Below are positions 3,831 through 46,811 of a stretch of 47,844 nucleotides of DNA, one piece after another (within the stretch, counting starts at the first letter, position 1; each line of letters starts with the position of its first letter). The notes under the pieces were generated by a model that saw nothing but the letters and a program-made list of their open reading frames with translations, made no database searches and was not told where the DNA came from. A program made the position numbers and the translations under genes. The stretch lies in the NCBI GenBank assembly GCA_026415155.1, contig JAOAHQ010000008.1:1-47844 (forward strand). The letters are read 5' to 3'. The DNA is from Rhodocyclaceae bacterium (GTDB lineage Bacteria; Pseudomonadota; Gammaproteobacteria; Burkholderiales; Rhodocyclaceae).

Positions 3831-3853
3831 GCCGTCCGGCGAGCGCCGATTAT
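3831..3853 (+). repeat. 23-bp dispersed repeat, copy 1 (intergenic)
   Basis: GCCGTCCGGC then GAGCGCCGATTAT. Matches the window-wide consensus (GCCGTC, two variable bases, then GC(C/G)AGCGCCGACTTT) with C-to-T and T-to-A changes near the end. It lies between the divergent rplM promoter and the osmC gene. Confidence 0.75.
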
Positions 3854-3880
3854 CGGCACGTCGTCCCTATCGGCCTTCGC

Positions 3881-3886
3881 TAGAAT
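3881..3886 (+). promoter_or_regulatory. Candidate -10 element of the osmC-type gene
   Basis: TAGAAT, 28 bases before the chosen ATG at 3914. The same hexamer recurs about 30-45 bases before the starts of proS, argB and cytochrome c4. No convincing -35 element is visible. Confidence 0.4.
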
Positions 3887-3913
3887 GGTTCTGTTGCAAT
3901 GCTGGAGAACGAC

Positions 3914-4330
3914 ATGGAATGCATCGTACGCTGGCACGAGGGCATGAGCTTCATCGCTCAGACAGGCAGCGGGCATTTGGTGCCAATGGATGGCGCGCCC
4001 GAAGCGGGCGGGCATAACTGGGCGCCGCGCCCGATGGAGATGCTCTTAGCGGGTGCGGGAGGCTGCACCTCTTACGACGTCATCACGATCCTGCGCAAGG
4101 CGCGCCAGGAAGTCACGGGCTGCGAGGTCAAGCTCACCGCCGAACGAGCGGCGGAAGATCCCAAGGTCTTTACGCGCATCGATCTGCATTTCGTCGTCAA
4201 GGGCAAAGGCCTCAAGCCCGAGCTGGTCGAGCGTGCCATCAAGCTTTCCGCTGAGAAATACTGCTCCGCGACGATCATGCTCGGCAAGACTGCGCAATTG
4301 AGCCACAGCTGGGAAATCGTCGAGGTCTGA
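3914..4330 (+). CDS. OsmC family protein
   Basis: 138 residues from ATG 3914, chosen over an in-frame ATG at 3899 because GGAG lies about 8 bases upstream of 3914 and nothing suitable precedes 3899. OsmC/Ohr-fold proteins are dimeric thiol peroxidases. The two redox cysteines are seen as Cys51 in GAGGCTSYDV and Cys117 in EKYCSATIML. The PRPMEMLLAGAGGC stretch is typical of the YhfA-like branch rather than Ohr. It is monocistronic and converges on coq7 with a 13-base gap. The substrate is not predictable from sequence. Confidence 0.9.
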   Translation: MECIVRWHEGMSFIAQTGSGHLVPMDGAPEAGGHNWAPRPMEMLLAGAGGCTSYDVITILRKARQEVTGCEVKLTAERAAEDPKVFTRIDLHFVVKGKGLKPELVERAIKLSAEKYCSATIMLGKTAQLSHSWEIVEV

Positions 4331-4343
4331 GAAGCCGAACCGG

Positions 4344-4970
4344 TCACACCCAGTATGCGGTCGAGGTCATGACCTTGGCGGCAAGCTTCATGCCCAGTTT
4401 TGCCGACACGGGCAATTCCACTGCGCCCAATCGCTGCGCGGTTTCGGCATGGGCGACTTCATCGACCCTCATCTGTTCGAGGATGGCGCGCGAACGCTGA
4501 TCATTTTCCGGTAGGCGCTCCAAATGACCCGTCAGATGCGCCTCGACCTGCCGCTCGGTCTCGGCGAGAAAGCCCAAGCTGATCGGATCGCCGAGCCGGC
4601 CGGCGATGGCGCCGATCACCCATGCGCCGGCATACCACAGCGGGTTGAGCAGGCTTTTTCTGCCGCCGAGCTCCTCGATGCGCCGTTCGGTCCAATTAAG
4701 GTGCTCGGTTTCCTCCCAGGCCGCCTGTTCGAGGGCCTTCCTCACCGACGCATCGCGGGCGGTAAAGGCCTGGCCGGCATAGAGGGCCTGCGCGCAGACT
4801 TCGCCGACATGATTGACGCGCATCAGGCCAGCGACATGGCGGCGCGCCTCCCCGTCGAGGTCAGCCTCGGGCAGGTCTTCGCCCGGCATGGGCCGCACCG
4901 TCGGGGCCTTGGCAAATACGGTGCGCAAGGCCTGATCGAGCTGGAGAATCAAAGGGTCGAGCAAGCTCAT
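4344..4970 (-). CDS. coq7: 2-polyprenyl-3-methyl-6-methoxy-1,4-benzoquinone hydroxylase
   Basis: 208 residues from ATG 4970. Coq7 is a membrane-associated di-iron enzyme that performs the last ring hydroxylation of ubiquinone synthesis. The carboxylate-bridged iron ligands are visible: E57 (VNHVGEVCA), the E86-ETEH90 block, an E in [16 protein letters not shown] (about 137-151) and D170-EVAH174. A hydrophobic hairpin around residues 111-135 would dip into the membrane. Upstream in-frame codons are open to 5126 but lie inside the preceding gene and look non-native. The gene follows the CNP1-like gene by 11 bases in an rppH-CNP1-coq7 run. Confidence 0.93.
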
Positions 4971-4981
4971 GACGAGGCCCT

Positions 4982-5518
4982 TCAGGTAGCATGTGGATGC
5001 TTGCCCAGTTTGAGGGCATTCCGGCCTTCGGCGGGCGAGGCGATCGGCACGCCACCGGGGCAGAACAGATCGCGCGAGAGGGCGGCATGGTGGCGATTCA
5101 TCGGCTTGTTTTCGATCGGCCGCCACTCGCTCAAGCGGGCCTTCGCCCAGCTCCTGTCGCCGCGTCCTGTCGCATAGATGCGGAACTCGCGCGTTTCGCA
5201 GCGGATGCCCTCGAAGCTCACATTGGTCGTCCCGCCCGCGGTGCGCACGACGAGGACGTAACGCACCACGCCGTCCTTGCCGACACTTAAGCTCGTGCCA
5301 TCGATGAAAAAGCGGTGCGCCGTCATCTCGCTCACATAGAAGGGCAACAGGTTGGCTTCCTCAGGATAGGCGGGCGGCTCGACCACTTCTTCCTGCCAAG
5401 GCGGCGCATCGGGGTCGTCCTGGCGCAAGCCAAACTGCGCCTGAGCGAGGCCTACCCCGCTAAGCAAGCAGAACGTCCCTGCGAGCCCAAGCAGCCGCTT
5501 AGCGCACATGCGACTCAT
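4982..5518 (-). CDS. Exported CNP1-like family protein
   Basis: About 178 residues from the ATG at 5518; an ATG at 5509 is equally possible. The N-terminus [22 protein letters not shown] is a signal peptide with likely cleavage after AQA. The mature part contains the CNP1-like domain: [27 protein letters not shown], then an [20 protein letters not shown] motif. Two cysteines (in GIRCETREF and DLFCPGGVP) could form a periplasmic disulfide. The family is widespread in betaproteobacteria and its role is unknown. The start overlaps the 3' end of rppH, suggesting translational coupling. Confidence 0.85.
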
Positions 5519-6047
5519 GCTCGGCTGACGCCGCGGCCTCGAGCGTCGGCCAGCCGGCCTGCCCCTCAGGCAGGTGCTGAAAGAGCAGATGAGCAAGCTC
5601 GGTGAGCGCCTGCTCATAGACCCGGCGCTTGAATTCGATCACCGTATCGAGCGGCACCCAGTAATTGCTCCAGCGCCAAGCGTCAAATTCGGGCTTCTCG
5701 GTCGCGCGCAGGCAGACATCGCTGTCGCGGCCGATGAGCCGCAGCAGAAACCAGATCTGTTTTTGCCCTTTGTAAGTGCCGCGCCACTCGCGGCGCACCC
5801 ATTGTTTCGGCACCTCGTAACGCAACCAATCGCGCGTGCGGCCGAGGATGCGCACATGCTCGGGCCGCAAGCCGATTTCTTCATAGAGCTCGCGATACAT
5901 CGCCTGCTCGGGCGTCTCGCCCTTCTTGATGCCGCCCTGCGGAAACTGCCAGGAGTGTTCGCGGATGCGTTTGCCCCAGAAGACCTCGTTGCGATGGTTG
6001 GTCAGAATGATGCCGACGTTCGGGCGATAGCCTTCCCGGTCGAGCAT
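5499..6047 (-). CDS. rppH: RNA pyrophosphohydrolase (Nudix)
   Basis: 182 residues from ATG 6047 ([13 protein letters not shown], the canonical RppH start). The enzyme removes pyrophosphate from mRNA 5' ends and so triggers RNase E decay. The Nudix box is complete at about residues 38-60: [13 protein letters not shown] followed by [10 protein letters not shown], with the metal-binding REXXEE glutamates present. The [17 protein letters not shown] segment is also characteristic. It is divergent from proS, with a 111-base shared upstream region. Confidence 0.95.
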
Positions 6048-6119
6048 GATGAAACCTCGAATGTTGGATTGACGGAATTGTTTCACATTTCGGTCGGTCG
6101 AGGGAAGCCGGCAAGGTCT

Positions 6120-6125
6120 TAGAAT
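6120..6125 (+). promoter_or_regulatory. Candidate -10 element of proS
   Basis: TAGAAT 34 bases before the proS ATG; no clear -35. The hexamer is shared with other gene starts in this window. Confidence 0.4.
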
Positions 6126-6158
6126 TGCTCCCTATTCCCATCGATCCGGAATCTCCTC

Positions 6159-7886
6159 ATGCGCGCCAGCCAGTTTTTCATCAATACGCTCAAGGAAGCT
6201 CCCGCCGATGCCGAAATCGTCTCGCATCGGCTTTTGACGCGCGCCGGCATGATCAAGAAACTCGCCGGCGGCATCTACACCTACATGCCGATGGGCCTGC
6301 GGGTCATCCGCAAGATCGAGGCCATCATCCGCGAGGAGATGAATCGCGCCGGGGCGATCGAATTATTGATGCCGATCGTGCAGCCGGCCGAGCTCTGGCA
6401 GGAAACCGGCCGCTGGGAGAAGATGGGGCCGGAACTGTTGCGCGTGAAGGATCGCCATGCGCGCGATTTCGTGATCCAGCCCACTTCCGAGGAAGTCATC
6501 ACCGACATCGCCCGCAGCGAAATCCACAGCTATCGCCAGCTGCCGAAGAACTTCTACCACATCCAGACCAAATTCCGCGACGAGCGGCGGCCACGCTTCG
6601 GCGTGATGCGCGGCCGGGAGTTCACGATGAAGGATGCCTATTCCTTCGACCGCGACGAGGCCGGCGCCGAAAAGAGCTATCGGGCGATGTATGAGGCCTA
6701 CGTGCGCATCTTTAAGCGCATGGGCTTAGCCTTTCGCGCCGTGCGCGCCGACACCGGCGCCATCGGCGGCTCGCTTTCCCACGAGTTCCAGGTCATCGCC
6801 GAAACGGGCGAAGATCTGATCGCCTATTGCCCCGACTCCGACTACGCGGCCAACATCGAATTGGCCGAGGCGCTGCCAGCGAATGCCGTCCGGCCAGCGC
6901 CGACTTGTCCGCTGCGCAAGGTCGCCACGCCTGACACGACGCGTTGCGAAGACGTGGCCAAGCTCTTGGGCCTGCCGCTCGAACAGACGGTGAAGTCCGT
7001 CGTGCTGGCCGTCGACACCCCCTTGGGCGCCGAGCTTTGGCTCTTGCTCTTGCGCGGCGATCACGAACTGAACGAGGTCAAGGCCGGCAAAGTGCCCGGG
7101 CTCGATCAAGGTTTCCGTTTCGCGACGGAGGCCGAGATCCTCGACCACTTTGGCTGTCCGCCAGGCTTCCTCGGCCCGCTCAATACGAAAAAGCCGGTGA
7201 GAATCGTCGCCGACCGCACGGTGGCCAACATGGCCGATTTCGTGACGGGTGCCAACGAGATCGGTTTTCACCTCCAGGGCGTCAATTGGGGGCGCGATTT
7301 GCCCGAACCCGAGATCGTCGCCGACATCCGCAACGTCGTCGCGGGAGATCCCTCGCCCGATGGCAAGGGAAAGCTCGCGATCCAGCGCGGCATCGAAGTC
7401 GGCCATGTGTTTTTCCTCGGCACCAAGTATTCCGAGGCGATGAACTGCACCTATCTCGATGAGACCGGCAAGCCGCGGCTCATGGTCATGGGCTGCTATG
7501 GCATCGGTGTGACGCGTCTCGTCGCTGCCGCGATCGAGCAGAACCACGACGAAAAAGGCATCATCTGGCCGGATGCGATCGCCCCCTTCACGGTCGTCAT
7601 CTGCCCGGTCGGCTGGGGCAAGTCCGAGGCCGTGCGCCAGGCGGCGCTCGAGCTCTATGAGAAGCTCGTCATTTCCGGCATCGACGTCATCCTCGACGAC
7701 CGCGACGAGCGGCCTGGCGTGATGTTCGCCGATTGGGAGCTCATCGGGGTGCCGCACCGTATCACGATCGGCGAGCGCGGCCTCAAAGAAGGCGTGGCCG
7801 AATACCAGCACCGGCGCGAACCGGCCGCGACCAAGGCGCCGCTTGCCGAGATCGCCGCGCTGATTCGCCAGAAGGTATGCGCCTAA
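6159..7886 (+). CDS. proS: Prolyl-tRNA synthetase (bacterial type, with editing insertion)
   Basis: 575 residues. Class II aminoacyl-tRNA synthetase charging tRNA-Pro. The N-terminal catalytic part includes [20 protein letters not shown] (about residues 140-160). A YbaK-like editing domain is inserted at about 245-400 ([23 protein letters not shown]). The second half of the active site carries the conserved [14 protein letters not shown] block, and an anticodon-binding domain ends the protein (about 475-575). Residues 243-250 (AVRPAPTC), in the linker entering the editing domain, are encoded by a copy of the 23-bp repeat. Followed by the transglycosylase gene, which starts inside its last codons. 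Confidence 0.97.
6885..6907 (+). repeat. 23-bp dispersed repeat, copy 2 (inside proS)
   Basis: GCCGTCCGGC then CAGCGCCGACTTG, within the proS linker between catalytic and editing domains, read in frame as AVRPAPTC. The segment does not look longer than in other prolyl-tRNA synthetases as I remember them, so substitution rather than insertion is possible. Confidence 0.75.
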
Positions 7887-8485
7887 CCCTGCTCGCCTTT
7901 CTCGTTTCGCTGGCGGCTTCCGCCTGGGCCGGCGCGCAGAAATATGAGCCCTTGGCCGCAAGCGTGCAGGCGGCCTTGCATGCCGCCGTCTCCGACCGCG
8001 CCGCGCCCGAGCCGCGCTTCGAGAGCCTGCAGGAAAAGATCGACTGGCTCACCGAGATGTCGCGCCGCCTCGAAAAACGCATGCCCGACCGCCAGGCGCG
8101 CCTCGAATTCTTGAAGACCGTGCGTTATGAAGCCCAGCGCGCCGGGCTCGATCCTCAGCTCGTGCTGGGGCTCATCGAAGTGGAAAGCGGCTTTCGCAAA
8201 TATGCCGTCTCCTCGGCCGGCGCGCGCGGCTACATGCAGGTAATGCCCTTCTGGGTCGAGCTGATCGGCGAGAAGGGGCACAACCTGTTTCATCTACGCA
8301 CCAACCTGCGCTATGGCTGCACGATCCTGCGCCACTATCTCGACATGGAAAACGGCGATCTCTTTCGCGCGCTCGGCCGCTACAACGGCAGCCTCGGCCG
8401 GCCCGAATACCCCAATATGGTGCGCGCCGCCTGGGAGCGCCGCTGGGCCTGGGGGCCGCGCGTGATCCAGACTTCGGCGCGCTGA
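7877..8485 (+). CDS. Exported lytic transglycosylase
   Basis: 202 residues from ATG 7877, which overlaps the proS stop by 10 bases (translational coupling). A signal peptide ([20 protein letters not shown]) targets it to the periplasm. The SLT/GH23 domain has the catalytic glutamate at about E103 in [18 protein letters not shown], followed by the conserved [11 protein letters not shown] and a later [11 protein letters not shown] motif. It cleaves peptidoglycan between MurNAc and GlcNAc with anhydro-bond formation. The small size (one domain) places it with MltE/Slt-domain-only proteins rather than MltC or MltD. Confidence 0.9.
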
Positions 8486-8491
8486 TTCGCG

Positions 8492-8514
8492 AAAGTCGGC
8501 GCTGGCGGGACGGC
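8492..8514 (-). repeat. 23-bp dispersed repeat, copy 3 (intergenic)
   Basis: On the minus strand GCCGTCCCGC then CAGCGCCGACTTT, an exact consensus match. It fills most of the 32-base gap between the convergent stop codons of the transglycosylase gene and ffh. Confidence 0.85.
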
Positions 8515-8517
8515 CCT

Positions 8518-15162: not shown

Positions 15163-15170
15163 TCTTTTGC

Positions 15171-15193
15171 GCCGTCTTGCCGGCGCCGACTTT
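15171..15193 (+). repeat. 23-bp dispersed repeat, copy 4 (between DUF502 gene and aspS)
   Basis: GCCGTCTTGC then CGGCGCCGACTTT, one base off consensus. It occupies the middle of the 43-base leader of aspS, ending 12 bases before its ATG, where a ribosome-binding site would be expected. Confidence 0.8.
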
Positions 15194-15205
15194 TGGAACC
15201 CGAAC

Positions 15206-17005
15206 ATGCGAACTCATTATTGCGGCCAACTTTCCGCCCGCCACGTCGATCAAGAGGTCATCCTCTGCGGCTGGGCCCATCGCCGCCGCGATCACGGCGG
15301 CGTGATCTTCATCGACCTGCGCGATCGCACCGGCCTCGTGCAGGTCGTCTGCGATCCCGACCGTCCCGAGATGTTCAAGCTCGCGGAGGCCGTGCGCAAT
15401 GAGTTCGTGCTCAAGATCAGCGGCCGCGTGCGCCGCCGTCCCCCCGGCACCGAGAACCCCAACCTCGCCTCGGGCGAAGTCGAGGTGCTCTGCCAGGCGC
15501 TCGAGATCCTCAACACGGCCGCCACCCCGCCCTTCCAGCTCGACGACGATCATCTCTCGGAGACCGTGCGCTTGACGCACCGCGTCATCGATCTGCGGCG
15601 GCCGCAGATGCAGAAAAACCTCATGCTGCGCTACCAGGTGACGCGCGCCTTCCGCCGCTTCCTCGATGAGCACGGCTTCATCGACATCGAAACGCCGATG
15701 CTCACCAAATCGACCCCCGAAGGCGCGCGCGACTATCTCGTGCCTTCGCGCGTGCATCCGGGCCAGTTCTACGCCTTGCCGCAATCGCCGCAACTCTTCA
15801 AACAGCTCTTGATGGTCGCAGGCTTCGACCGCTACTACCAGATCGTCAAGTGCTTCCGCGACGAGGACTTGCGCGCCGATCGGCAGCCCGAATTCACCCA
15901 GGTCGATATCGAAACGTCGTTCATGGACGAAGGCGAGATCATCGCGCTGATGGAAGAGATGATCCGCGCGGTCTTCAAGGAAGCGCTCGCCGTAAAGCTG
16001 CCCAATCCCTTCCCGCGCTTGACCTACGCCGAGGCGATGCGCCGCTTCGGTTCCGACAAGCCCGACTTGCGCGTGACGCTGGAACTGACCGAAATCACTG
16101 ATGCCGTGCAGGATGTCGCCTTCAAGGTTTTCTCCGGCCCGGCCAACTCAGGCGGGCGGGTCGCCGCCTTGCGCATCCCCGGCGGTGCGAGCTTGACGCG
16201 CGGCGAGATCGACCAGCTTACGGAATTCGTCAAGATCTATGGCGCCAAGGGCCTCGCCTACATCAAGGTCAATGACGTCACGAAGCTCAACGAGGAGGGC
16301 CTGCAGTCGCCGATCGTCAAGAATCTGCATGAGCGGGCGCTTGCGACCATCATGGCGCGCACCGGCGCGCAAAGCGGCGATCTGATCTTCTTCGGGGCGG
16401 ACAAGGCGAAGATCGTCAATGATGCCTTGGGCGCCTTGCGCGTCAAGCTTGGCCACGAAAAGGGCTTCCTGAGCGGCACCGCCTGGACGCCGGTCTGGGT
16501 CGTCGATTTCCCGATGTTCGAATACGACGAAGAGGAGAAGCGCTGGACGGCCTGCCACCACCCCTTCACCTCGCCGAAGGATGGCCATGTAGAGCTCATG
16601 AAGACGAACCCCGGCGAGTGTCTCGCCAAGGCCTATGATCTTGCGCTCAATGGCTGGGAGATCGGCGGCGGCTCGGTGCGGATCCATAAGCCCGACGTCC
16701 AGGCCAAGGTCTTCGAGGCGCTCGGCATTGGCGAAGAAGAGCAGCGCGCCAAGTTTGGCTTCCTGCTCGACGCCTTGAAATATGGCGCCCCGCCGCATGG
16801 GGGACTCGCCTTCGGCCTCGACCGCATCGTCACGTTGATGGCCGGTGCCGAATCGATCCGCGACGTGATCGCCTTCCCGAAGACGCAGCGCGCCCAGTGC
16901 CTGCTCACCGAGGCGCCCTCGGCCGTCGATGAGAAGCAGTTGCGCGAGCTGCACATCCGCCTGCGGCAGAAGGTCGAAACGCAAGTCGAGGTCGGCAAAG
17001 GCTGA
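15206..17005 (+). CDS. aspS: Aspartyl-tRNA synthetase
   Basis: 599 residues from ATG 15206 ([18 protein letters not shown], the usual AspRS start). An in-frame ATG at 15167 would translate through the 23-bp repeat and is not believed. Domains are an N-terminal OB fold, then the class II core with motif 2 around [18 protein letters not shown] (about 222-239), the bacterial GAD insertion (about 290-420), and motif 3 [12 protein letters not shown] near the C-terminus. It may be the non-discriminating type (charging tRNA-Asn too), as is common in betaproteobacteria, but this cannot be read directly. Its stop TGA overlaps the next ATG by one base. Confidence 0.96.
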
Positions 17006-17346: not shown

Positions 17347-17777
17347 ACTACGCAGCGATCCTGGCCCGCCTCGAACACGCCGGCGTCTATCACATGCCGC
17401 TCGATGGCGAGGCCGCCCTCATCGAAGGCGCCTTGCACAACGGCTTCGAGGTCTTTCGCGTCGATCTCGCCCATGCGCATAACAAAGAAGAGATGCTCGA
17501 AGCCATCGGCAAGGCGATGCACTTTCCCGAGTGGTTCGGCGCGAATTGGGACGCGCTGCTCGACTGTCTTGCCGATTTGGGCTGGCGGCCCGCCGAAGGC
17601 TATGTGGTGATCCTCGAACACTGCGACGGCATCCATGGCCTCGCCGAGGCCGACTTCGTCCATGCGCTGCAGGTATTCGAGGCGGCCGCCAACGAATGGC
17701 GCGAGCAGGGCATCCCCTTCTGGTGCTTCGTCGACATGATGGCCGACGGCATCAACTGGCTCTCCGACATCGCTTGA
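17343..17777 (+). CDS. Barstar family ribonuclease inhibitor
   Basis: 144 residues, cytoplasmic. Barstar-like proteins plug the active site of barnase-type RNases. The family core is clear in HFPEWFGANWDALLDCL (about 60-76), containing the helix and acidic residue that face the RNase, and in GYVVILEHCDG. It is longer than Bacillus barstar (90 residues) through an N-terminal extension (1-35). The ATGA overlap with the RNase gene places inhibitor and nuclease under the same message. Its stop codon TGA (17775-17777) is at the first base of the left arm of a 17-bp inverted repeat. Confidence 0.92.
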   Translation: MNYAAILARLEHAGVYHMPLDGEAALIEGALHNGFEVFRVDLAHAHNKEEMLEAIGKAMHFPEWFGANWDALLDCLADLGWRPAEGYVVILEHCDGIHGLAEADFVHALQVFEAAANEWREQGIPFWCFVDMMADGINWLSDIA

Positions 17778-17986
17778 ACCCAGATTGTCCATTAGACCGG
17801 GCAGGTCATCCATGAGGAAGCTCAACGACCTTCGCACTGCCCTACGTGGCGGCGCTCGGGCTGCGGGCGGCATCTGCGCGCCCGTGCTCCTCGTCCAGAG
17901 GCAACGCTATGGACTCGTCGCCCGAGCGGGCATCTCCTCGCCCTCGCCGGCGAGCGCCGCTCGCGTTCCAATGGACAATCTGGGTT
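17777..17986. repeat. 210-bp segment bounded by perfect 17-bp inverted repeats
   Basis: AACCCAGATTGTCCATT at 17777-17793 and its exact complement AATGGACAATCTGGGTT at 17970-17986. The inside (about 176 bp) has no gene I can support. TTGA flanks both sides (17774-17777 and 17985-17988) and could be a target duplication overlapping the repeat ends. It could be a non-autonomous transposable element or an invertible segment. It exactly fills the space between the barstar stop and the possible nudB starts. Confidence 0.75.
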
Positions 17987-17993
17987 GAACGTC

Positions 17994-18915: not shown

Positions 18916-18938
18916 AAAGTCGGCGCTAGGCCGACGGC
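18916..18938 (-). repeat. 23-bp dispersed repeat, copy 5 (after hsp20)
   Basis: Minus strand GCCGTCGGCC then TAGCGCCGACTTT. It begins 8 bases after the hsp20 stop, just before the terminator hairpin, whose stem also contains the GACGGCGC/GCGCCGTC sequence. Confidence 0.8.
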
Positions 18939-18949: not shown

Positions 18950-22872
<3,923 letters not shown>

Positions 22873-26567: not shown

Positions 26568-27284
26568 ATGCCTCTGCCCCTGTCAATCGACGCTTGGTTG
26601 AACCGGCTCCTACCGCGCGTCTGCCTCTTGTGCGGCGATCGGGCCACAGGGGCGCTGTGCGCGGAATGCGAGGCCGACCTGCCGCGGCTTGCCGGGCCGC
26701 TTTGCCCCGTCTGCGCGCAGCCGCTCGAAGCGCCAGCGCCCGCCTGCGGCGCTTGCCTCAAACAGCCGCCGGCCTTCGATGCCTGCTTTACGCCGCTTCA
26801 GTATGCGCCGCCCGCCGACGCCCTCGTGCGCCTCTTCAAGTTTCCGGGCGAGCCCTTCGCCCGCCGTCTCGCCAGCGCCGACTGTCTCGCCGCCGCGATG
26901 CTCGGCGGCCCCCGGCCGGCGGGCGACGTTATCGTGCCCGTGCCGCTTTCCCGCGCGCGGCTCAAAGAGCGCGGCTTCAACCAAGCACTCGAACTTGCCC
27001 GGCCGCTCGCACGCGCACTTATGCTGCCGCTCGATACGACGGGCCTCGTGCGCGTGCGTGAGACCGCGCCGCAAAGCACGCTGGCCTGGGAAGAGCGCGC
27101 GCGCAATCTGCGGCAGGCCTTTCTCGCCGAGCGCAGCTATGCGGGCCTTTCCGTCATCCTCGTCGATGACGTGATGACGACGGGGGCGACCTTCGATGCC
27201 GCGGCAAGCGCGCTCAAGGCGGCAGGAGCAGTGCGCGTCTTCGGCTGGAGCGCAACGCGGGCCCTCAAGGCTGGGCCGCCTTGA
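26568..27284 (+). CDS. comF: ComF family protein (phosphoribosyltransferase-like)
   Basis: 238 residues. The N-terminal double zinc ribbon has cysteines at about 19/22, 31/34, 46/49 and 60/63 (RVCLLCG, LCAECE, LCPVCA, ACGACL). The C-terminal PRTase domain includes VIVPVPLSRARLKERGFNQ (about 125-143) and a PRPP loop VILVDDVMTTGATFDAAA (about 207-224). ComF/GntX proteins are needed for DNA uptake during natural transformation in several bacteria. Residues 99-106 (RRLASADC) are encoded by the 23-bp repeat in the same frame as in engB. The 3' end overlaps convergent mshN by 20 bases. Confidence 0.92.
   Translation: MPLPLSIDAWLNRLLPRVCLLCGDRATGALCAECEADLPRLAGPLCPVCAQPLEAPAPACGACLKQPPAFDACFTPLQYAPPADALVRLFKFPGEPFARRLASADCLAAAMLGGPRPAGDVIVPVPLSRARLKERGFNQALELARPLARALMLPLDTTGLVRVRETAPQSTLAWEERARNLRQAFLAERSYAGLSVILVDDVMTTGATFDAAASALKAAGAVRVFGWSATRALKAGPP
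26863..26885 (+). repeat. 23-bp dispersed repeat, copy 7 (inside comF)
   Basis: GCCGTCTCGC then CAGCGCCGACTGT, one base off consensus, on the coding strand and read as RLASADC. Confidence 0.82.
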
Positions 27285-28368
27285 ACTTCTGCTCGGCGGT
27301 AGCAGCGAGTTCCGCCGGCAGATTGCCCGCTTCCTTGGCCTTGGCATAGGCCTGGCGCGCCTCCTCCAATCGGCCCACCTGTTCGAGCGCGACGGCGAGC
27401 CCAAACCACCAGCGGCCTTCGGCGGGCCGTAAGGCGAGCGCGGCGCGAAAGCGCTCTGCCGCCTCGGCAAAGCGCTGCTGCTTTTGCAGCAAGAAGGCAT
27501 AGAGGCTCTGGTAATCGGCATCCTGCGCGGCGTAAGCGGCGTGTTTTTCGAGCGTTGCCAGCGCCTCGGAAAGCTCGCCCTGCTCGAACTGCAGGCGCGC
27601 GAGAATCACCGCCCAGCCCGTCTGCGCCGGATCGAGCATAAGCCCCGCTTGTGCGACGCGCTTTGCATCCTCCCAGGCCTTGGCGCCGACGAGCACCGAC
27701 AAGAGCGCCTGGCGCGCGCGCGCATGCTGCGGATCGAGTTCGAGCGCATGTTGAAAGAGCGGTTGTGCCACCGCGGGCTCGCCGCGCTTGACCGCCTGCA
27801 TGCCCTTGCGGTATTCGGCCTCGGCGAGCTCGCGCCCCGGCCCGCCGCGGCTTTGCTTGTCGATCTGCGCTTCGGGCGCCGGCACCGCTGGCGCGGGATC
27901 GGTCTTGACGGTGGCCGCCGCCGGTTCGCGAACCTCTTGGCGGTTGTCGCTCTTGGTCGGGGATGAGCGCTCTACGGCCTTGCCTGGCGCTGCTTGGGGA
28001 AGCGCTAGCTGTGTTGCAAGCTTCATCTCGCCGAGATCGGCGCGCTTCGCTTCCGCCGCCGGCGCGCTCCCCGCAGCGGGCGGGGCGGGCGTCGCAGGTG
28101 CGGGCGAGGCGGCGGTGGCAGGCGAAAAAGTCGGCGCTGGCAAGACGGCCTGGGGCGGCGAAGAGGGAGGCGGCGCCATGAGCCAGGCGACGGCGAGGCC
28201 TGCGACGAGGCCGCCCAAGGCCATGCCGATCAAAAGATAGCGCCAAGACTGGGCGCGCGACGAGCGCGCCGGCGGCAGAGGGCGCAAGCGCGGCGGCAGG
28301 CCGGCGCGCTCTTGCTCGCTCGCCTGGCGGGCATCCAAGTCGCGCAGCATCTGGTTGATGACGCTCAT
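27265..28368 (-). CDS. mshN: MSHA biogenesis protein MshN-like (TPR)
   Basis: 367 residues. The N-terminus MSVINQMLRDLDARQ is the recurrent start of MshN/GspB-type proteins. A transmembrane helix (about 43-65, WRYLLIGMALGGLVAGLAVAW) is followed by a long Pro/Ala-rich periplasmic linker (about 66-165). Four or five tetratricopeptide repeats come next (about 175-365, for example ALELDPQHARARQALLSVL and RAALALRPAEGRWWFGLAVAL). The linker contains AVLPAPTF, encoded by a copy of the 23-bp repeat. It is the last gene of the msh run, 10 bases after mshM. The role in MSHA pilus assembly is inferred from family and context. Confidence 0.85.
   Translation of the reverse strand: MSVINQMLRDLDARQASEQERAGLPPRLRPLPPARSSRAQSWRYLLIGMALGGLVAGLAVAWLMAPPPSSPPQAVLPAPTFSPATAASPAPATPAPPAAGSAPAAEAKRADLGEMKLATQLALPQAAPGKAVERSSPTKSDNRQEVREPAAATVKTDPAPAVPAPEAQIDKQSRGGPGRELAEAEYRKGMQAVKRGEPAVAQPLFQHALELDPQHARARQALLSVLVGAKAWEDAKRVAQAGLMLDPAQTGWAVILARLQFEQGELSEALATLEKHAAYAAQDADYQSLYAFLLQKQQRFAEAAERFRAALALRPAEGRWWFGLAVALEQVGRLEEARQAYAKAKEAGNLPAELAATAEQKFKAAQP
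28127..28149 (-). repeat. 23-bp dispersed repeat, copy 8 (inside mshN)
   Basis: On the coding strand GCCGTCTTGC then CAGCGCCGACTTT, an exact consensus match, in the proline-rich linker and read as AVLPAPTF (a different frame from engB and comF). Confidence 0.85.
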
Positions 28369-33945: not shown

Positions 33946-33968
33946 GCCGTCGGGCCAGCGCCGACTTT
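33946..33968 (+). repeat. 23-bp dispersed repeat, copy 9 (after pccA)
   Basis: GCCGTCGGGC then CAGCGCCGACTTT, an exact consensus match, ending 5 bases from the pccA stop codon. Confidence 0.85.
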
Positions 33969-37520: not shown

Positions 37521-38552
37521 CTAGAAATACCGGTTCAGCAGATTCAGAAGCCGCTGCGCGGCGGCCGTGGGAGAGGTTTCGCCCGCCTCGACGGCGCGGG
37601 AAAGCTCAGGCAAGAGCGCGCGCACTGCCGGATGTTCGCGAAAACGGTGGCGTAATCCTGCATCGATCGCCTGCCACATCCAGGCGAGCGCCTGGCGGCG
37701 CCGCTTGTCTTCCCAGGCGCCGCTCGCCCGCTGGGTGCGCTCGAATTCGAGCAGGGCCTGCCAGACGGCTTCGATGCCCTGGCCGCGGTGCGCGCTTACC
37801 GTCAGCACCGGCGGCCGCCAGCCCGAAGCGGATGGATGCAAGAGCGCAAGCGCGCTTCGCAGGCCCTGTGCGGCGCGCTCGGCCGCGGCGGCATCGAGGT
37901 CGGCCTTGTTGATGACGATGAGATCAGCGAGTTCCATGATGCCGCGCTTCATGCCCTGTAGCTCGTCGCCCGCATTCGGCAATTGCAAGAGCACGAAAGC
38001 GTCGGTCATGCCTGCCACGGCCGTCTCGCTTTGCCCGACGCCGACGGTCTCGACGATGACGACATCGAAGCCGGCCGCCTCGCAGAGGAGCAGCGCCTCG
38101 CGCGTTTTCTCGGCCACCCCGCCGAGGGCGCCCGCCGAGGGCGAGGGTCGAATGAAGGCCGCCTCCAGTTGGCTTAAGCGCGCCATGCGCGTCTTGTCGC
38201 CCAAAATCGAGCCGCCGCTTAAGGAAGAGGACGGATCGACGGCGAGCACCGCAACTTTTTTGCCCGCTTCGATGAGATAAAGGCCGAAAGCCTCGATGAA
38301 GGTCGATTTGCCGACGCCAGGCACGCCCGTGAGGCCGATGCGCAGGCTCTTGCCCGTCTGCGGCAAGAGGGCGTCGAGCAGGCGGCCCGCACGTTCCTGG
38401 TGGTCGGCGCGCGTCGATTCGATCAGCGTGATCGCCTTGGCCAGCGCGCGACGCTTTCCCGCTAGCACGCCGTTGATGAGGGCCCGATCCTCGGTCGCGA
38501 GCGACTGAGGCGCAACCGAGGGCCGTCGTGCCAGCGCCGAGTGTTCAGACAA
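37521..38552 (-). CDS. meaB: Methylmalonyl-CoA mutase-associated G3E GTPase MeaB (ArgK)
   Basis: About 343 residues from TTG 38552, chosen because GGGAG sits 7 bases upstream; an in-frame TTG at 38591 lies deeper in the toxin gene. Walker A is [18 protein letters not shown], then [24 protein letters not shown] and the GTP-specificity NKADLDA. MeaB loads and protects adenosylcobalamin on the mutase. The start overlaps the toxin stop, so its ribosome site lies in the toxin gene. Codons 3 to 11 (EHSALARRP) contain a copy of the 23-bp repeat before the conserved [22 protein letters not shown] start of the family. Confidence 0.9.
38522..38544 (+). repeat. 23-bp dispersed repeat, copy 10 (5' end of meaB)
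   Basis: GCCGTCGTGC then CAGCGCCGAGTGT on the strand opposite to meaB. Two changes near one end. It is translated in meaB as part of EHSALARRP. Confidence 0.75.
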
Positions 38553-39241: not shown

Positions 39242-41407
<2,166 letters not shown>

Positions 41408-41461: not shown

Positions 41462-41490
41462 TTGACTTTCTCGCGCCCAAATAATACTTT
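41462..41490 (+). promoter_or_regulatory. Candidate promoter of the GntR-crotonase pair
   Basis: TTGACT (41462-41467), 17-base spacer, TACTTT (41485-41490). The predicted start of transcription is within a few bases of the ATG at 41501. A CATAATTATG palindrome at 41494-41503 overlaps the start codon and could be a GntR site. No ribosome-binding site is visible. Confidence 0.45.
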
Positions 41491-41500
41491 ATCCATAATT

Positions 41501-42172
41501 ATGAATGCAAGAGACGATGAAAAGCCGCTGGCGCTGCCGGCGCTCTACGAACAGGTCGCCGAGCGGCTGCGCGCGCGCATCTATGCGCACGAGCTTGCGC
41601 CCGGCGCTTGGATCGACGAACAGGCGCTCGCCGACGAGTTCGGCATCTCCAGGACGCCGCTGCGCGAGGCGCTCAAGGTGCTCGCCGCCGAGGGGCTCGT
41701 GGTGCTCAAACCGCGGCGCGGCTGCTACGTCGCGCAGTTGTCGGAGCGCGATCTCGACGAAATCTTCCCCGTGCTGGCGCTACTCGAAGGCCATGCCGCC
41801 GAACAGGCCTGCCGGCGTCTTTCGAGCGCCGACTTCGCGCGCCTCGAAGCGCTGCATGCCGAGCTCGAGCGCCACGCCGCGGCACACGACACCGACCGCT
41901 TCTTCGAGGCGAACCAGGCCTTCCACAACGCCTTGCAGTCGCTCGCCGGCAACCGCTGGCTCTCGCAGCTCATCGACGACACGCGCAAGTTCTTGAAGCT
42001 CACGCGCCGCGATTCGCTGCGGCTCGAAGGTCGCATCGAGCAATCGCTCGCCGAACACCGCCAGCTCCTCGCCGCGCTGGCGCGGCGCGATGCGGCTGCC
42101 GTGTGCCAGGCAATGCAGGCGCACATCCTTTCCGGCCGCGCGGCGCTCGCGCAGCTTCTGACGCAATCGTGA
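41501..42172 (+). CDS. GntR-family transcriptional regulator (FadR/FCD subgroup)
   Basis: 223 residues from ATG 41501. The N-terminal winged helix is at about 10-75 (VAERLRARIYAHELAPGAWIDEQALADEFGISRTPLREAL then VVLKPRRGCYVAQLS). The FCD ligand domain (about 80-220) has the metal-site histidine pattern FHNALQSLAGN and an EHRQLLAAL motif. Divergent from mcm and coupled to the crotonase gene, it is a candidate regulator of propionyl-CoA/methylmalonyl-CoA genes, probably responding to an acid or CoA-derived ligand. Target and ligand are inference. Confidence 0.9.
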   Translation: MNARDDEKPLALPALYEQVAERLRARIYAHELAPGAWIDEQALADEFGISRTPLREALKVLAAEGLVVLKPRRGCYVAQLSERDLDEIFPVLALLEGHAAEQACRRLSSADFARLEALHAELERHAAAHDTDRFFEANQAFHNALQSLAGNRWLSQLIDDTRKFLKLTRRDSLRLEGRIEQSLAEHRQLLAALARRDAAAVCQAMQAHILSGRAALAQLLTQS

Positions 42173-42945
42173 GCGGCGCGATTCTCTTCAAGCGCGAGGG
42201 CCGCTGCGCCTTCGTCACGCTCGCCAACCCCGGCAAGAAGAATGCCCTCGATGCCGCGATGTGGCGGCGGCTCGCCGAGGTCTTCGCCGAGCTCGACGCG
42301 CAAGACGGCTTGCGCTGCATCGTCATCGCGGGCGAGGGCGGGGCCTTCGCCGCCGGCGGCGATCTCGATGAGATGCATAAAGCGCGCGCCACGGTCGAAG
42401 GCGCGCTTGCCTATCATGAAACCGTCGGCCGGGCGCTCGAGGCCATCGCGCACTGCCGCCATCCGGTGATCGCCGAGATCCGCGGCCCCTGTGTCGGCGG
42501 CGGGCTCGAGATCGCCTGTGCCTGCGATCTGCGGATCGCGGCCGCCTCGGCGCGCTTCGGCATCCCGATCCAGCGGCTTGGCTTTTCGATCTTTCCCGGC
42601 GAACTCGCAGCACTGCTCAGGCTCGTCGGCCCGGCCGTCATCAAGGAGCTCCTCCTCGAAGGCCGCCTGCTCTCGGCCCGTGAAGCCTACGAGAAAGGCC
42701 TGGTGACACGCGTCGTCGCCGACGCAGCGCTCGCCGAAGAGGTGCGTGCGACGGCCGAGCGCATCGCCGCCGGCGCGCCGCTCGTCGCGCGCGCTCACAA
42801 GCAGTGGATCGCACGCCTGTTGGACGGCGCCCCTTTGACGGACGACGAAAAACGGGCATCCTTCGCCTTTCTCGACACGGCGGACTACCGGGAAGGCCTG
42901 GCGGCCTTCCGGGACAAGCGCCCGCCACGCTTCACAGGAACCTAG
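42169..42945 (+). CDS. Enoyl-CoA hydratase/isomerase (crotonase) family protein, atypical active site
   Basis: 258 residues from GTG 42169, which overlaps the GntR stop. Crotonase-fold landmarks are the oxyanion loops GAFAAGGDLDEMH (about 55-67) and GPCVGGGLEIACACDLRI. Of the two glutamates used by canonical hydratases, the first equivalent is present (GGGLEIA). The second, normally in an FGxPEv block, is replaced: the sequence reads FGIPIQRLGFSIFPGE. This suggests a decarboxylase, isomerase or hydrolase rather than a hydratase. With mcm next door, a malonyl- or methylmalonyl-CoA-type decarboxylase is a possibility but not shown. Confidence 0.85.
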   Translation: MSGAILFKREGRCAFVTLANPGKKNALDAAMWRRLAEVFAELDAQDGLRCIVIAGEGGAFAAGGDLDEMHKARATVEGALAYHETVGRALEAIAHCRHPVIAEIRGPCVGGGLEIACACDLRIAAASARFGIPIQRLGFSIFPGELAALLRLVGPAVIKELLLEGRLLSAREAYEKGLVTRVVADAALAEEVRATAERIAAGAPLVARAHKQWIARLLDGAPLTDDEKRASFAFLDTADYREGLAAFRDKRPPRFTGT

Positions 42946-42959
42946 AGGAGCTCATCTCC

Positions 42960-43418
42960 ATGTCTCACAGAATCGCCGCGGCCCTCGCCGCCGCGCTCTT
43001 CGCCACGCTCGCCCTGCCCGCGCCCGCCGCCGAGCACGCCAAAGTCGGCGCTCGCCCGACGGCCCCTCAGGCGGCGAAAAACCGCATCGTCATCCAGATC
43101 AACGAGGACGATGGCAAGAAATGGATGGCGGTGCTCGCCAACATCAAGAACATCCAGGCCGAGCTCGGGCAAAGGAATGTCGCGATCGCCGTCGTCGCCA
43201 TCGGCGCGGGGCTCGGCATGCTCGCCGCCGATTCGATCGCCGCCAACGAGGTCGAGGATGCGATCAAAACCGGCGTCGAGTTCATCGCCTGCGGCAATTC
43301 GATGACGGCGCAGAAGGTCGCGCCGGAGGATCTCGTCGCCGGCAGCCAGATCGCCAAGGCCGGCTATGTCGAGATCATGCGCCGCCAGCAAGCCGGCTGG
43401 ACCTACCTACGACCATGA
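42960..43418 (+). CDS. Exported DsrE-like family protein
   Basis: 152 residues from ATG 42960, GAGGAG upstream. A signal peptide (RIAAALAAALFATLALPAPAAE) is followed by KVGARPTA, encoded by the 23-bp repeat, and then a DsrE/F-like domain (NRIVIQINEDDGKKWMAVLANIKNI, VAIVAIGAGLGML-type strand, VEFIACGNSM with a single Cys). DsrE-fold proteins in the cytoplasm relay sulfur, and exported versions are of unknown role. The conserved Cys in ACGNSM is present. The HAD gene follows with an ATGA overlap. Confidence 0.88.
   Translation: MSHRIAAALAAALFATLALPAPAAEHAKVGARPTAPQAAKNRIVIQINEDDGKKWMAVLANIKNIQAELGQRNVAIAVVAIGAGLGMLAADSIAANEVEDAIKTGVEFIACGNSMTAQKVAPEDLVAGSQIAKAGYVEIMRRQQAGWTYLRP
43041..43063 (-). 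repeat. 23-bp dispersed repeat, copy 11 (inside the DsrE-like gene)
   Basis: On the minus strand GCCGTCGGGC then GAGCGCCGACTTT, an exact consensus match. Translated in the gene as KVGARPTA, exactly between the signal peptide and the folded domain. Confidence 0.85.
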
Positions 43419-44065
43419 TCGACTGGAACGCGATCGACACCGTCTTGCTCGACATGGACGGCACCTTGCTCGATCTCCATTTCGACAACCACTTCTGGCT
43501 CACGCATGTGCCGCAGCGCTACGCCGAAGCGAAGGGCCTGCCGTATGAGGCGGCGCGCGAGGAGCTCATGGCGCGCTATCACGCGCGCGCCGGCACGCTC
43601 GAGTGGTATTCGGTCGATTACTGGGAGACCGAGCTTGAGCTCGACATCATGCGGCTTAAGGAGGAAGTCGCCCACTTGATCCAGGTGCATCCGGCCGTCG
43701 TCGACTTCCTTGGCTGGCTGAGGCGGGAAGGAAAGCGCATCGTGCTCGCCACCAATGCGCATCACAAGAGCCTGACGCTCAAGCTGGCGAAGACCGGTCT
43801 CGAACCCCACTTCGATGCGATCGTCTCCTCCCACGCGCTGGGCTGCGCGAAAGAGGAGCGCTGCTTTTGGGAGAAACTGCGCGCGCTCGAGCCCTTCGAG
43901 CCGGCGCGCACGCTGCTCGTCGATGACAGCCTGCCTGTCCTCGATGCGGCGCGCGATTACGGCATCCGCCATCTGGTGGCGGTCCGCACCCCCGACACGA
44001 AACTGCCGCCGAAAGACACGCGCGGCTATCCGGCGATTGACAGCTTCGCCGAGCTGCTTCCATAA
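43415..44065 (+). CDS. yrfG: HAD-superfamily GMP/IMP 5'-nucleotidase, YrfG-like
   Basis: 216 residues, ATGA overlap with the DsrE-like gene. Motif I is TVLLDMDGTLLDL (D13 and D15), followed by HFDNHFWLTHVPQRYAEAKG, a block typical of YrfG. Motif II is IVLATNAHHKSL and motif IV RTLLVDDSLPVLDAA. YrfG dephosphorylates purine nucleotides such as GMP and IMP in vitro. The stop codon overlaps the first bases of a Fur-box-like palindrome belonging to the following iron transporter gene. Confidence 0.88.
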   Translation: MIDWNAIDTVLLDMDGTLLDLHFDNHFWLTHVPQRYAEAKGLPYEAAREELMARYHARAGTLEWYSVDYWETELELDIMRLKEEVAHLIQVHPAVVDFLGWLRREGKRIVLATNAHHKSLTLKLAKTGLEPHFDAIVSSHALGCAKEERCFWEKLRALEPFEPARTLLVDDSLPVLDAARDYGIRHLVAVRTPDTKLPPKDTRGYPAIDSFAELLP

Positions 44066-44083
44066 TGAGAACTGTTCTCAACT
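44062..44083. promoter_or_regulatory. Fur-box-like palindrome before the FeoB-like gene
   Basis: ATAATGAGAACTGTTCTCAAC. The core TGAGAAC-T-GTTCTCA (44066-44080) is a perfect 15-bp inverted repeat, and the first ten bases match the classical ATAATGATAA half-site at nine positions. It lies 18 bases before the TTG start of the FeoB-like gene. Confidence 0.65.
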
Positions 44084-44097
44084 AGTCGGCTCGCTGC

Positions 44098-46146
44098 TTG
44101 TCCTCCGCACCGCACACCTTTCCGCTTGCCGGCCCCTTGCTGCGCGGCAGCCGCTGCCCGCGCGTGGCGATCCTCGGCCAGGCGCGCGCCGGCAAGAGCG
44201 CCATCTTCCGCGCCGCCTCGAGCACGGCGGTGCGCCACGCGCGCCTCGCCGGCATCGGCCCGGCCTATGAAGAATGCCAGGTCGAGGTCGGGCTCGACCA
44301 GCTCTCGCTCGTCGATCTGCCGGCACTCGAAACCTTCCATAGCCTCTCGCCCGAGACGGCGGTGATTCTGAAATACCTGCTGTGGGGCGATTGCTGGCCG
44401 GCGATCGCGCGGCACGAGGCGCACCAGCCGGCCGCGGCCTTCGCCGCGCCGGACGTGCTGCTTCTGGTGATCGACGCCACGGCGCTCGAGCGCGATCTCG
44501 AGCTTGCCCTGGAGCTCGCGCAGATCGGCAAACCGCTCGTCATCGCCTTGAACCGCATGGACGAAGCCCGTGCCAAGCGCCTCTTCATCAACGTGCGGGC
44601 ACTCTCGGAACGGCTGGGCGCTCCTGTGGTGCCGACCGTCGCCCACATGGGGCTGGGCCTCGCTGAGCTCTTCACCGCCATCGTGCGCGCGGCGCGTGAA
44701 AGGCGCGCGCCGACGCCCCAGCCGCCTTCGCCCTACATCGCCCAGCATCTCGCGCCGATCGCCGAGCTGGCGGCGCAAGCCGAGGTGGCCGAGGCCTTTC
44801 GCGCGCCGACCACTTTTTTAGCCCAGCAGCTCGCCGAAAACGACGACTACTTCGCCGCCGAGCTCCGCTGCCATTTTCCGCAGCATCATGGCGCGCTGCT
44901 CGCCGCGCGCGAGGCGGCCGATGCGGCGCTCCCCCGCCCCCTGGGCGAAGAAATCCATGCCGACCGCCACCATCGCGCGGCGCTGCTCTTCGAAGCCGTC
45001 ACGCGGCCCGGCGGCGGCGAGATCACCCCGCGCTGGCAGCGGCTTGCCGACGAACTCTTCTTGCATCCGCGCTGGGGCTTTGCCGGCACGCTGGCTATCT
45101 TCGCGCTGGTGCTCTTCTTCGTCTTCGAGGTGAGCAGCTGGCTCGATGCGCTCACCGTCGCACGCTTGAATGCCTGGGCGGAAGCCTGGCAGCCAAGCGG
45201 CTTGGACGGCATCCTCCTGCGCGCCGTGGCCGATGGCCTGCTGGGGCTCATGGGCATCGTCATTCCCTACATGATCCCGCTCGTGCTGCTCCTTGCCTTC
45301 CTCGAAGAATCGGGCCTCATGCATCGCGTCGCCTTCGTCGTCGACCGCGGCTTTCACCGGCTCGGCCTGCACGGCGGCGTGGCGCTGCCCTTCCTGATGG
45401 GGCTGGGCTGCAACGTGCCGGCGCTCGCTGCCACGGCCGCGGTCACCCACGGCCGCGACCGTGCGGTGGCCGCGCTCCTCATCACCTTCTTGCCCTGCTC
45501 GGCGCGCTCGGCGGTCATCCTCGCCTTGGGCGGCAAGTATCTCGGCGGCTTCGGCGTCTTCGCCCTCTTCATGCTCGCGCCGATTGTCGTCAGCCTCGTC
45601 GGCAAATTCCTCAAGCATCGCTATCCCGAAACCACGCCAGGCATCATCCAGGAAATCCCTCCCTATGCGCTGCCCACGCTGCGCCGGCTCGTCTGGCTTA
45701 CCTGGGAGCGAAGCCGCGACATCGTCACGATCGTCTTGCCGCTCTTGGTCGCCGGCAGCGTCGTGCTCGCGCTACTTGCCTATTTCGGCCTCGATGCGTG
45801 GATCAACTGGCTCCTTGCCCCGGTGACGAGCGGCTGGCTGGGGCTGCCCGCCGAGCTTGGCGTGCCGATCCTCTTTGGCGTACTGAGAAAGGAGCTTTCG
45901 CTCCTGATGGTCTTCCAGGCACTCGGCACGCAGGAACTCGCCGGCGTGCTCGATTCGACGCAGATCGCCACCTTCCTGGCCTTTCTCACCTTTTACGTGC
46001 CCTGCATCTCCACCTTCGCGATGATGCTCAAGCTCCTTGGCCGGCGCGAGGCGTTCTTTTCCGTGGCGCTGTCGGTCTCAGCGGCGCTCGCCGTCGCCGC
46101 GGCCGTACGCTGGCCTCTCGAGCTCTTCTCGGCTATGCTGAGCTGA
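44098..46146 (+). CDS. feoB: FeoB-like ferrous iron transporter
   Basis: 682 residues from TTG 44098. An N-terminal G domain has G1 GQARAGKSAIF (about 27-37), DLPALETFHSLSPET at G3, and G4 LNRMDEA. A helical insertion follows (about 205-330), then the membrane part (about 335-680) with two Gate-like repeats (LPFLMGLGCNVPALAATAAV and GVPILFGVLRKELSLLMVFQA). The GCNVPA and LRKEL motifs are FeoB signatures. Shorter than E. coli FeoB (773) and with an unusual G3: FeoB normally has DLPGxYSL, here DLPALETFHSL. No feoA is adjacent. The Fur-box-like site upstream supports iron control. Confidence 0.88.
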   Translation: MSSAPHTFPLAGPLLRGSRCPRVAILGQARAGKSAIFRAASSTAVRHARLAGIGPAYEECQVEVGLDQLSLVDLPALETFHSLSPETAVILKYLLWGDCWPAIARHEAHQPAAAFAAPDVLLLVIDATALERDLELALELAQIGKPLVIALNRMDEARAKRLFINVRALSERLGAPVVPTVAHMGLGLAELFTAIVRAARERRAPTPQPPSPYIAQHLAPIAELAAQAEVAEAFRAPTTFLAQQLAENDDYFAAELRCHFPQHHGALLAAREAADAALPRPLGEEIHADRHHRAALLFEAVTRPGGGEITPRWQRLADELFLHPRWGFAGTLAIFALVLFFVFEVSSWLDALTVARLNAWAEAWQPSGLDGILLRAVADGLLGLMGIVIPYMIPLVLLLAFLEESGLMHRVAFVVDRGFHRLGLHGGVALPFLMGLGCNVPALAATAAVTHGRDRAVAALLITFLPCSARSAVILALGGKYLGGFGVFALFMLAPIVVSLVGKFLKHRYPETTPGIIQEIPPYALPTLRRLVWLTWERSRDIVTIVLPLLVAGSVVLALLAYFGLDAWINWLLAPVTSGWLGLPAELGVPILFGVLRKELSLLMVFQALGTQELAGVLDSTQIATFLAFLTFYVPCISTFAMMLKLLGRREAFFSVALSVSAALAVAAAVRWPLELFSAMLS

Positions 46147-46787
46147 TGCGCCGGCCGCTTTATGTGCTCATTGCCAGCTTGGCTCCGCTCGTCGCGGGGG
46201 CGCAGGCCCTTTACCTCTGCGAAGACCCGCGCACCGGGCGAAAAATCGCCCAGGACAGCCCCTGCAAGACCGGCAAGCTGCTGCGTAGCTACGAGCTGCC
46301 GAGCCTTGAAGAGCAAAAGGCCCGTGAGGCGGCGAGTCGCCAGGCCAAACGCGAATTTGAGCGGCTGCACCCGGGCACCTATGCGCCCGAGGAATACATG
46401 ACGGAAGAAGAGCTCGCCGCCTGGCGCGCCGAGCAAGGCAGGCGCGAAGCCTTGCGGCGTAAGCAGGAGGAGGCCGCCGCCATTCAAGAAGCGCAGCGCC
46501 GCGCGCAGGAAGCCGAACGGCGCGCCCGGGAAGCCGAGCGCACCGCGGAGGAAGCTCGCGCGAAGGCCTCGGCCGCCGAAGCCGCTGCCAGCCGCACCGA
46601 GCGGCCGCTTCTCATCGTGCCGACACCCGCCCTCGTCCCCGCCCCGCCGTATCAGCCGCGCCTGCCCACGGCGCCCCGGCCGGCACCCTTCCTTCAGCCG
46701 CGCTGCGAGCGCGAAGACTGCCAGGAGGCGCCACCGCGCCGCGAAGGACGCGAAGCGCCGCCCGCCACGGGGCGGCGGCCTCTGTAA
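46146..46787 (+). CDS. Exported coiled-coil protein with DUF4124-like N-terminus
   Basis: 213 residues, TGATG overlap with the feoB stop. A signal peptide (RPLYVLIASLAPLVAGAQA) is followed by a short DUF4124-like segment (LYLCEDPRTGRKIAQDSPCKTG with two Cys). A long Glu/Arg/Ala helix comes next (about 55-150; RRAQEAERRAREAERTAEEARAK pattern) and a Pro-rich tail ending in TGRRPL. The helix is TolA-like but no TonB C-terminal domain is seen. Unknown function, translationally coupled to the iron transporter. Confidence 0.75.
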   Translation: MRRPLYVLIASLAPLVAGAQALYLCEDPRTGRKIAQDSPCKTGKLLRSYELPSLEEQKAREAASRQAKREFERLHPGTYAPEEYMTEEELAAWRAEQGRREALRRKQEEAAAIQEAQRRAQEAERRAREAERTAEEARAKASAAEAAASRTERPLLIVPTPALVPAPPYQPRLPTAPRPAPFLQPRCEREDCQEAPPRREGREAPPATGRRPL

Positions 46788-46788
46788 G

Positions 46789-46811
46789 GCCGTCCCGCCA
46801 GCGCCGAGAAA
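46789..46811 (+). repeat. 23-bp dispersed repeat, copy 12 (intergenic)
   Basis: GCCGTCCCGC then CAGCGCCGAGAAA. It starts 2 bases after the stop of the coiled-coil gene, between it and a convergent gene. Confidence 0.75.

Follow-up and report, generated by a model that had tools for sequence, protein, structure and literature searches.

The window analysed here, the whole 47,844-nucleotide stretch of contig JAOAHQ010000008.1 from a Rhodocyclaceae bacterium (assembly GCA_026415155.1), carries a dispersed 23-mer that is probably a DNA-uptake signal, through which the import of DNA would be biased towards that of the cell's own kind. With a little more reserve, we favour seeing in it a further, independently evolved third class of such signals, namely a 23-bp two-block one of environmental betaproteobacteria of the Rhodocyclaceae group, with dialects at the level of the genus, repeated losses and a near-regular spacing, and read by a surface receptor. 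Among the three roles that the original prediction had proposed for the repeat, the uptake sequence is the best supported, a chromosome-architecture site is the main rival, and a repetitive extragenic palindromic (REP) unit served by a REP-associated tyrosine transposase (RAYT) is contradicted.

For Neisseriaceae and Pasteurellaceae, the portions of the literature drawn on here describe how short signals in the genome make DNA uptake self-specific. In the open-licence literature, searched by titles and starts of abstracts for uptake sequences, transformation, Rhodocyclaceae, Sulfuritalea, Burkholderiales and 12-mers of the motif, the repeat was not found described. If the uptake reading is true, free-living bacteria provide one more such case, in which dialects and losses occur naturally among close relatives. 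It would then allow study of how a code of this kind originates, how its receptor and its motif evolve together, and whether uptake bias yields even spacing; the motif would also be a sequence tag with which to follow gene flow in environmental genomes.

Abundance, boundaries and orientation

The genome to which the window belongs is a draft of 70 contigs (2.38 Mb, 83.5% complete) and holds 283 and 280 copies on its two strands at up to three mismatches, so there is no strand bias genome-wide; the pattern read backwards occurs once on one strand and not at all on the other. Rather than the few additional copies that the original prediction had set against its own proposal, there are thus hundreds more. 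Anatomy and placement were worked out in a sample of 447,844 bases, made up of the window and 400 kb from three contigs of the same genome, which contains 116 copies. A logo of the 98 copies with at most two mismatches shows conservation spanning exactly 23 bp, AAAGTCGGCGCTGGCRRGACGGC, with flanks near background and with TCGGCGC and GACGGC as the nearly invariant parts. Copies with zero to four mismatches number 32, 37, 30, 17 and 10 in the sample, and the reversed and complement controls give none in any of these classes. The 23-mer is non-palindromic, and its best folds on the two strands are weak (−5.1 and −2.6 kcal/mol), much as the original prediction had judged. On the reverse strand the motif begins GCCGTC, which is also the start of the core of the neisserial DNA uptake sequence (DUS), GCCGTCTGAA; this six-base match may well be due to chance.

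By our own gene caller, 79 of the 116 copies lie inside genes, 30 between them and 7 across gene borders, and since 92.5% of the sample is called coding, intergenic sequence is about 3.4-fold enriched for the motif even though two thirds of the copies are intragenic. The intragenic copies are largely (71 of 79) confined to three of the six reading frames. Among neighbouring copies 59 pairs are oppositely oriented and 53 share a strand, so local polarity is lacking as well. A polar signal for replication or repair, akin to Chi or to the FtsK-orienting polar sequences (KOPS), would also be expected in hundreds of copies, some of them inside genes, but the random orientation of neighbours across the 448 kb led to this reading being set aside, and it seems scarcely probable at all. 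Chi- and KOPS-type signals are moreover far shorter than 23 bp.

Spacing

In the 448-kb sample from this one genome the mean distance between copies is 3.8 kb with a coefficient of variation (CV) of 0.555, the closest two copy starts are 347 bp apart and no pair falls under 200 bp. When copies were placed 2000 times with their coding and intergenic classes matched, the mean CV was 0.98 and the lowest 0.733, and at least two gaps shorter than 347 bp arose every time. Natural 8-mers with 100 to 135 copies behave likewise, none of 275 being as even as the motif and none being free of short gaps. The first of the three widest motif gaps holds genes of the tricarboxylic acid cycle and the third a low-GC cluster of glycosyltransferase and O-antigen-ligase genes, which from its composition may be acquired DNA. 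An uptake motif is expected to be rare in constrained genes and in recently acquired DNA, and the contents of these gaps were therefore counted for the uptake reading. An 8.4-kb gap on contig C10 was considered as a possible rRNA operon, an idea dropped when Rfam returned no match there and the gap proved to be the low-GC glycosyltransferase cluster. As a separate observation, the IMG/VR contig L393 has five exact motif copies at 883-2238, four of them spaced 316 bp, which is unlike the usual spacing.

The evenness bears directly on the main rival, in which the 23-mer would be bound every 4 kb or so by an abundant cytosolic protein for organising, compacting or marking the chromosome, with no role in uptake. 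To our knowledge no chromosome-organising site of such a form has been described. Markedly even spacing is what such a site would show, and strand neutrality, dialects and losses are also compatible with the co-evolution of a site and its protein. In the part of PMC1939737 relied on here, compaction sites are expected to be more even than DUS or the uptake signal sequence (USS) of Pasteurellaceae, so the strong evenness could favour the rival and in this respect tells against uptake. On the other hand the rapid loss of the motif in single species within carrier genera (G006, G194, G277) would be odd for an architectural site, and fixed-frame copies in tRNA synthetases and other core genes, together with the gradient of near-matches, fit a drive better than a set of a few hundred sites that the cell requires. 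Overall a chromosome-architecture site seems unlikely, though it deserves to be kept in view.

Turnover by substitution

How the motif comes and goes was followed at 65 sites (at most one mismatch) from 14 genomes of the window's genus, in the stretch that corresponds by orthology to part of the window, giving 516 site-by-genome comparisons that are non-independent, one site often having been queried from several genomes. A motif was scored as kept at three or fewer mismatches and as lost at five or more. The comparisons are ungapped in 384 cases; 376 are coding, and 310 of these are ungapped, with the motif kept in 270 and lost in 40. Taken together, the ungapped coding comparisons are 91.2% identical at the 20 fixed bases; those that keep the motif reach 96.2%, as against 74.9% in the flanks. 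Intergenic ungapped comparisons number 73, and the motif is retained in 67 of them. Gaps within the motif, of many sizes, occur in 132 comparisons (66 coding, 53 intergenic and 13 at borders), and a net loss of 20-26 bp in only 6 of the 516.

One genome of the genus, G006, accounts for 17 of the 40 coding losses, and all its ungapped coding comparisons have 8-12 mismatches, with flanks at 69.6% identity; its remaining 21 comparisons are gapped (8 coding, 11 intergenic, 2 at borders). Absence of the motif from coding sites of G006 despite their orthology implies that protein constraint alone does not preserve it. It also answers the concern, raised with the original prediction, that the same sequence might stand at these sites in distant relatives lacking the repeat elsewhere, since this same-genus genome was compared at orthologous sites and is without the motif there. 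The comparisons show that the motif is preserved from species to species and that it has been gained and lost mostly via point mutation and not by insertion.

These results bear on a mobile unit, REP-like or a miniature inverted-repeat transposable element (MITE), that would be copied by a transposase such as a RAYT. REP elements mobilised by RAYT transposases are dispersed, reach high copy numbers, are enriched between genes and form a stem-loop. The short 23-mer resembles them in its dispersal, its hundreds of copies and its 3.4-fold intergenic enrichment, but differs in having no stable hairpin, in being mostly intragenic and in lacking an insertion signature, its absence at orthologous sites being mostly a matter of substitution; its dialects, moreover, alter the middle while both ends stay constant. 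A RAYT-served or other insertion unit is strongly contradicted by these features and was set aside as very improbable, though no search was aimed at a RAYT gene itself.

Dialects and losses across the family

All but one of the 19 genomes of the window's genus have 206-402 copies per strand; the exception is G006 with 2 and 2. A de novo count of 11-mers in 80 kb of G028, from another genus, brought out AAAGTCAGTCC, which led to AAAGTCAGTC...CACGGC, a motif with the same frame and a different middle (18 matches, reversed control 1). With the loose pattern AAAGTC-N12-ACGGC, for which reversed controls stay at or below 8 per strand across family genomes, 37 of the 249 family genomes, spread over ten genera, reach at least 30 copies per strand, and intermediate genomes exist, for example G154 (10/16 per strand), G277 (12/7) and G097 (6/10). 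The middles vary from genus to genus: g88, for example, has GATACGGC endings and g69 has AAAGTCGACGCTGG, the samples being small for several genera. For G006 (98 kb) and G036 (80 kb), de novo 11-mer counts yielded no motif of the genome's own, and in 60 kb of G021 nothing but a tandem repeat was prominent. That repeat, at about 1-1150 of L249, has a 144-bp unit in eight copies and possibly encodes a repeat protein.

Elsewhere in the order, a sample of 291 genomes from its other families contains none in which the pattern is abundant; all have at most 8 copies in total apart from one exception with 18, and reversed controls across this sample reach 15 on a strand. The exception is the Casimicrobiaceae metagenome-assembled genome (MAG) PDA_C_MAG.43 (G356, identical to G286), in which the loose-pattern copies are of GGCGCT and AGTC dialects; they may represent either contamination or DNA from two kinds of donor. 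Of 17 genomes reached via named loci, 11 are motif-rich and 6 poor. The rich ones include the cultured Sulfurisoma sediminicola BSN1 (134/157 copies), the others being MAGs labelled Rugosibacter, Sulfuritalea, Sulfurisoma, Propionivibrio dicarboxylicus and Rhodocyclaceae, and also Burkholderiaceae (274/288) and Gammaproteobacteria (256/294), affiliations that are those of the record labels only. The poor ones, with 1-6 copies in all, are labelled Tepidicella, Rhodoferax, Thiobacillus, Tepidiphilus, Azonexus and Casimicrobiaceae.

A tree of DprA from 40 chosen genomes, a single-gene tree whose deep branches are moderately supported, places nine carrier genera in one group (85/93), with the low- or no-copy genomes G124, G240, G006 and G277 nested there. 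The dialect genus g11 groups with the motif-less g6 (95/87), and the motif-poor G194 lies inside. Presence of the motif requires seven changes on this tree, and none of 500 shuffles does as well. Residual copies by the loose pattern are seen in G240 (7/4) and G277 (12/7). Several losses of the motif within genera are indicated by this nesting.

A probable uptake code, and points against it

Biased import followed by recombination would produce just such a motif, scattered without polarity and at even intervals, lying partly inside genes in favoured frames, upheld by substitution and divided into dialects. A DNA receptor that belongs to the competence pilus and is exposed at the surface, probably a minor pilin, would recognise each copy. 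During natural transformation the cell would preferentially import motif-bearing DNA of its own kind, and by homologous recombination the imported copies would replace resident near-copies, such that biased uptake would slowly convert near-matches to matches wherever the sequence is tolerated. One site per few kilobases would suffice, and an even spacing would follow; receptor and motif would co-evolve, lineages drifting into dialects, and where the specificity is lost the motif would decay via point mutation. That a receptor reads the motif, that this reader belongs to the uptake machinery, and that uptake bias drives the accumulation are steps that we infer.

The uptake reading is drawn from likeness to known systems. 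Neisseriaceae DUS, read by the minor pilin ComP according to the sections of PMC3630211 and PMC12616744 used here, are likewise short non-palindromic motifs in hundreds of copies, within and between genes, with lineage dialects and family members that have none (PMC3630211), and the known or proposed receptors of DUS and USS are minor pilins in what was drawn from PMC12616744. They differ in that DUS have about 10-12 bp as against 23 bp in two blocks here, and the present motif is unlike DUS or its dialects in sequence. With Pasteurellaceae USS the motif shares a mostly intragenic placement (68% here; 65% of H. influenzae sites in open reading frames), even spacing and an origin by point mutation, as given for DUS and USS in the portion of PMC1939737 relied on, and also dialects, whereas its sequence is unrelated and its conserved block is much longer than the 9-bp USS core.

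Genes for ComEC and DprA and a cluster of type IV pilus minor pilins are present in the window's genome, as transformation would require. The distribution of such genes nonetheless weighs against an uptake signal. ComEC is found in 43 of 44 genomes whether or not they carry the motif (the one genome without it, G188, is a carrier and 85% complete), and DprA is above the cut-off in 42 of the 44, again regardless of the motif. The two that fall short of a full DprA, G114 (one contig, 99% complete) and G019, are rich in the motif; this fits poorly with upkeep by ongoing transformation, although the loss of DprA may be recent. In the motif-less G006 no clear rate excess for DprA was found relative to 18 window genes, and relaxed selection, hinted at by a long branch, found no support (rate 1.65; for the 18 genes median 1.39, range 1.00-1.75). 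Pilins of the ComP_DUS family (PF16732) occur in 53 of 61 genomes irrespective of the motif and do not separate the carriers, the fimT-pilV-pilW-pilE cluster shows no gene tracking the motif across 20 genomes, and neither does any pilin in the inventories of six genomes (G017, G006, G277, G110 in part). An MSHA-like cluster, absent in the motif-poor G194 and present in G028, was tried as a correlate and discarded, given that the motif-poor G006 and G277 have such pilins. Furthermore an exact motif copy is present in 93 stretches of IMG/VR contigs, and the close inverted pairs, acting as terminators, that neisserial DUS often form have no counterpart among copies that start at least 347 bp apart.

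A signal for packaging or export, in exchange of the gene-transfer-agent or pilus-mediated kind and not in the import of naked DNA, would leave the same signature, as would any biased exchange followed by recombination, and a site every 3.8 kb or so fits it too. No sign of such a system was seen, though no search was aimed at one. Since almost all genomes tested have ComEC and DprA, transformation would be the more economical route, and a packaging or export role seems improbable.

Copies in the window and other repeats

A re-scan of the window, accepting up to three mismatches over 21 specified bases, returned 13 sites against an expectation of 0.00 in shuffled sequence, so that the density is beyond chance, as had been claimed. 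All 12 sites listed by the original prediction are correct in coordinate and strand, and so is its division of them into six intergenic and six intragenic. The scan recovers 11 of these and adds two weak intragenic copies that were overlooked at first, while the twelfth is a decayed copy.

Table 1. Copies of the 23-mer in the window. Mismatches are counted over 20 fixed bases; strands refer to AAAGTCGGCGCTNGCNNGACGGC and are opposite to the convention of the original prediction; gene positions come from our own codon-usage gene caller.
Feature	Positions	Strand	Mismatches
Motif copy, intergenic	3831..3853	-	2
Motif copy in prolyl-tRNA-synthetase-like gene (6159-7886)	6885..6907	-	1
Motif copy between convergent genes	8492..8514	+	0
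Motif copy, start of class II (D/K/N type) aminoacyl-tRNA synthetase gene (called 15167-17005)	15171..15193	-	1
Motif copy, intergenic	18916..18938	+	1
Weak copy in HAD-hydrolase gene	19981..20003	+	3
Motif copy in GTPase gene (EngB-like)	22354..22376	+	0
Motif copy in ComF-like gene (26598-27284; DZR_2 + Pribosyltran)	26863..26885	-	1
Motif copy in TPR-protein gene	28127..28149	+	0
Motif copy, intergenic	33946..33968	-	0
Motif copy, intergenic	38522..38544	-	2
Weak copy in GntR-family regulator gene	41814..41836	-	3
Motif copy in gene of unknown family (42960-43418)	43041..43063	+	0
Decayed copy, intergenic	46789..46811	-	4

At the orthologues of the weak copy in the HAD-hydrolase gene there is one mismatch in G013, G011 and G001 and a gap-free replacement in G004, G016 and G017. 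The copy in the GTPase gene has 0-2 mismatches in 12 of 13 relatives and 9 in the motif-less G006, and that in the ComF-like gene is ungapped with 0-2 mismatches in seven of nine aligning relatives and gapped in two.

A distinct, MITE-like repeat of 216 bp with 26-nt terminal inverted repeats (88%) lies at 17774-17989 of the window, just after a Barstar-family gene, and has no 23-mer inside. It has at least 14 further copies at 90-97% in the genome and nine at 74-94% in the 448-kb sample, and none in other genomes among the matches listed. Rfam also places an anti-hemB RNA (RF02837, 56.6 bits) at 22166-22258 (+), next to a hemB (ALAD) gene (21075-22088); it overlaps the GTPase gene in which the motif copy at 22354 lies.

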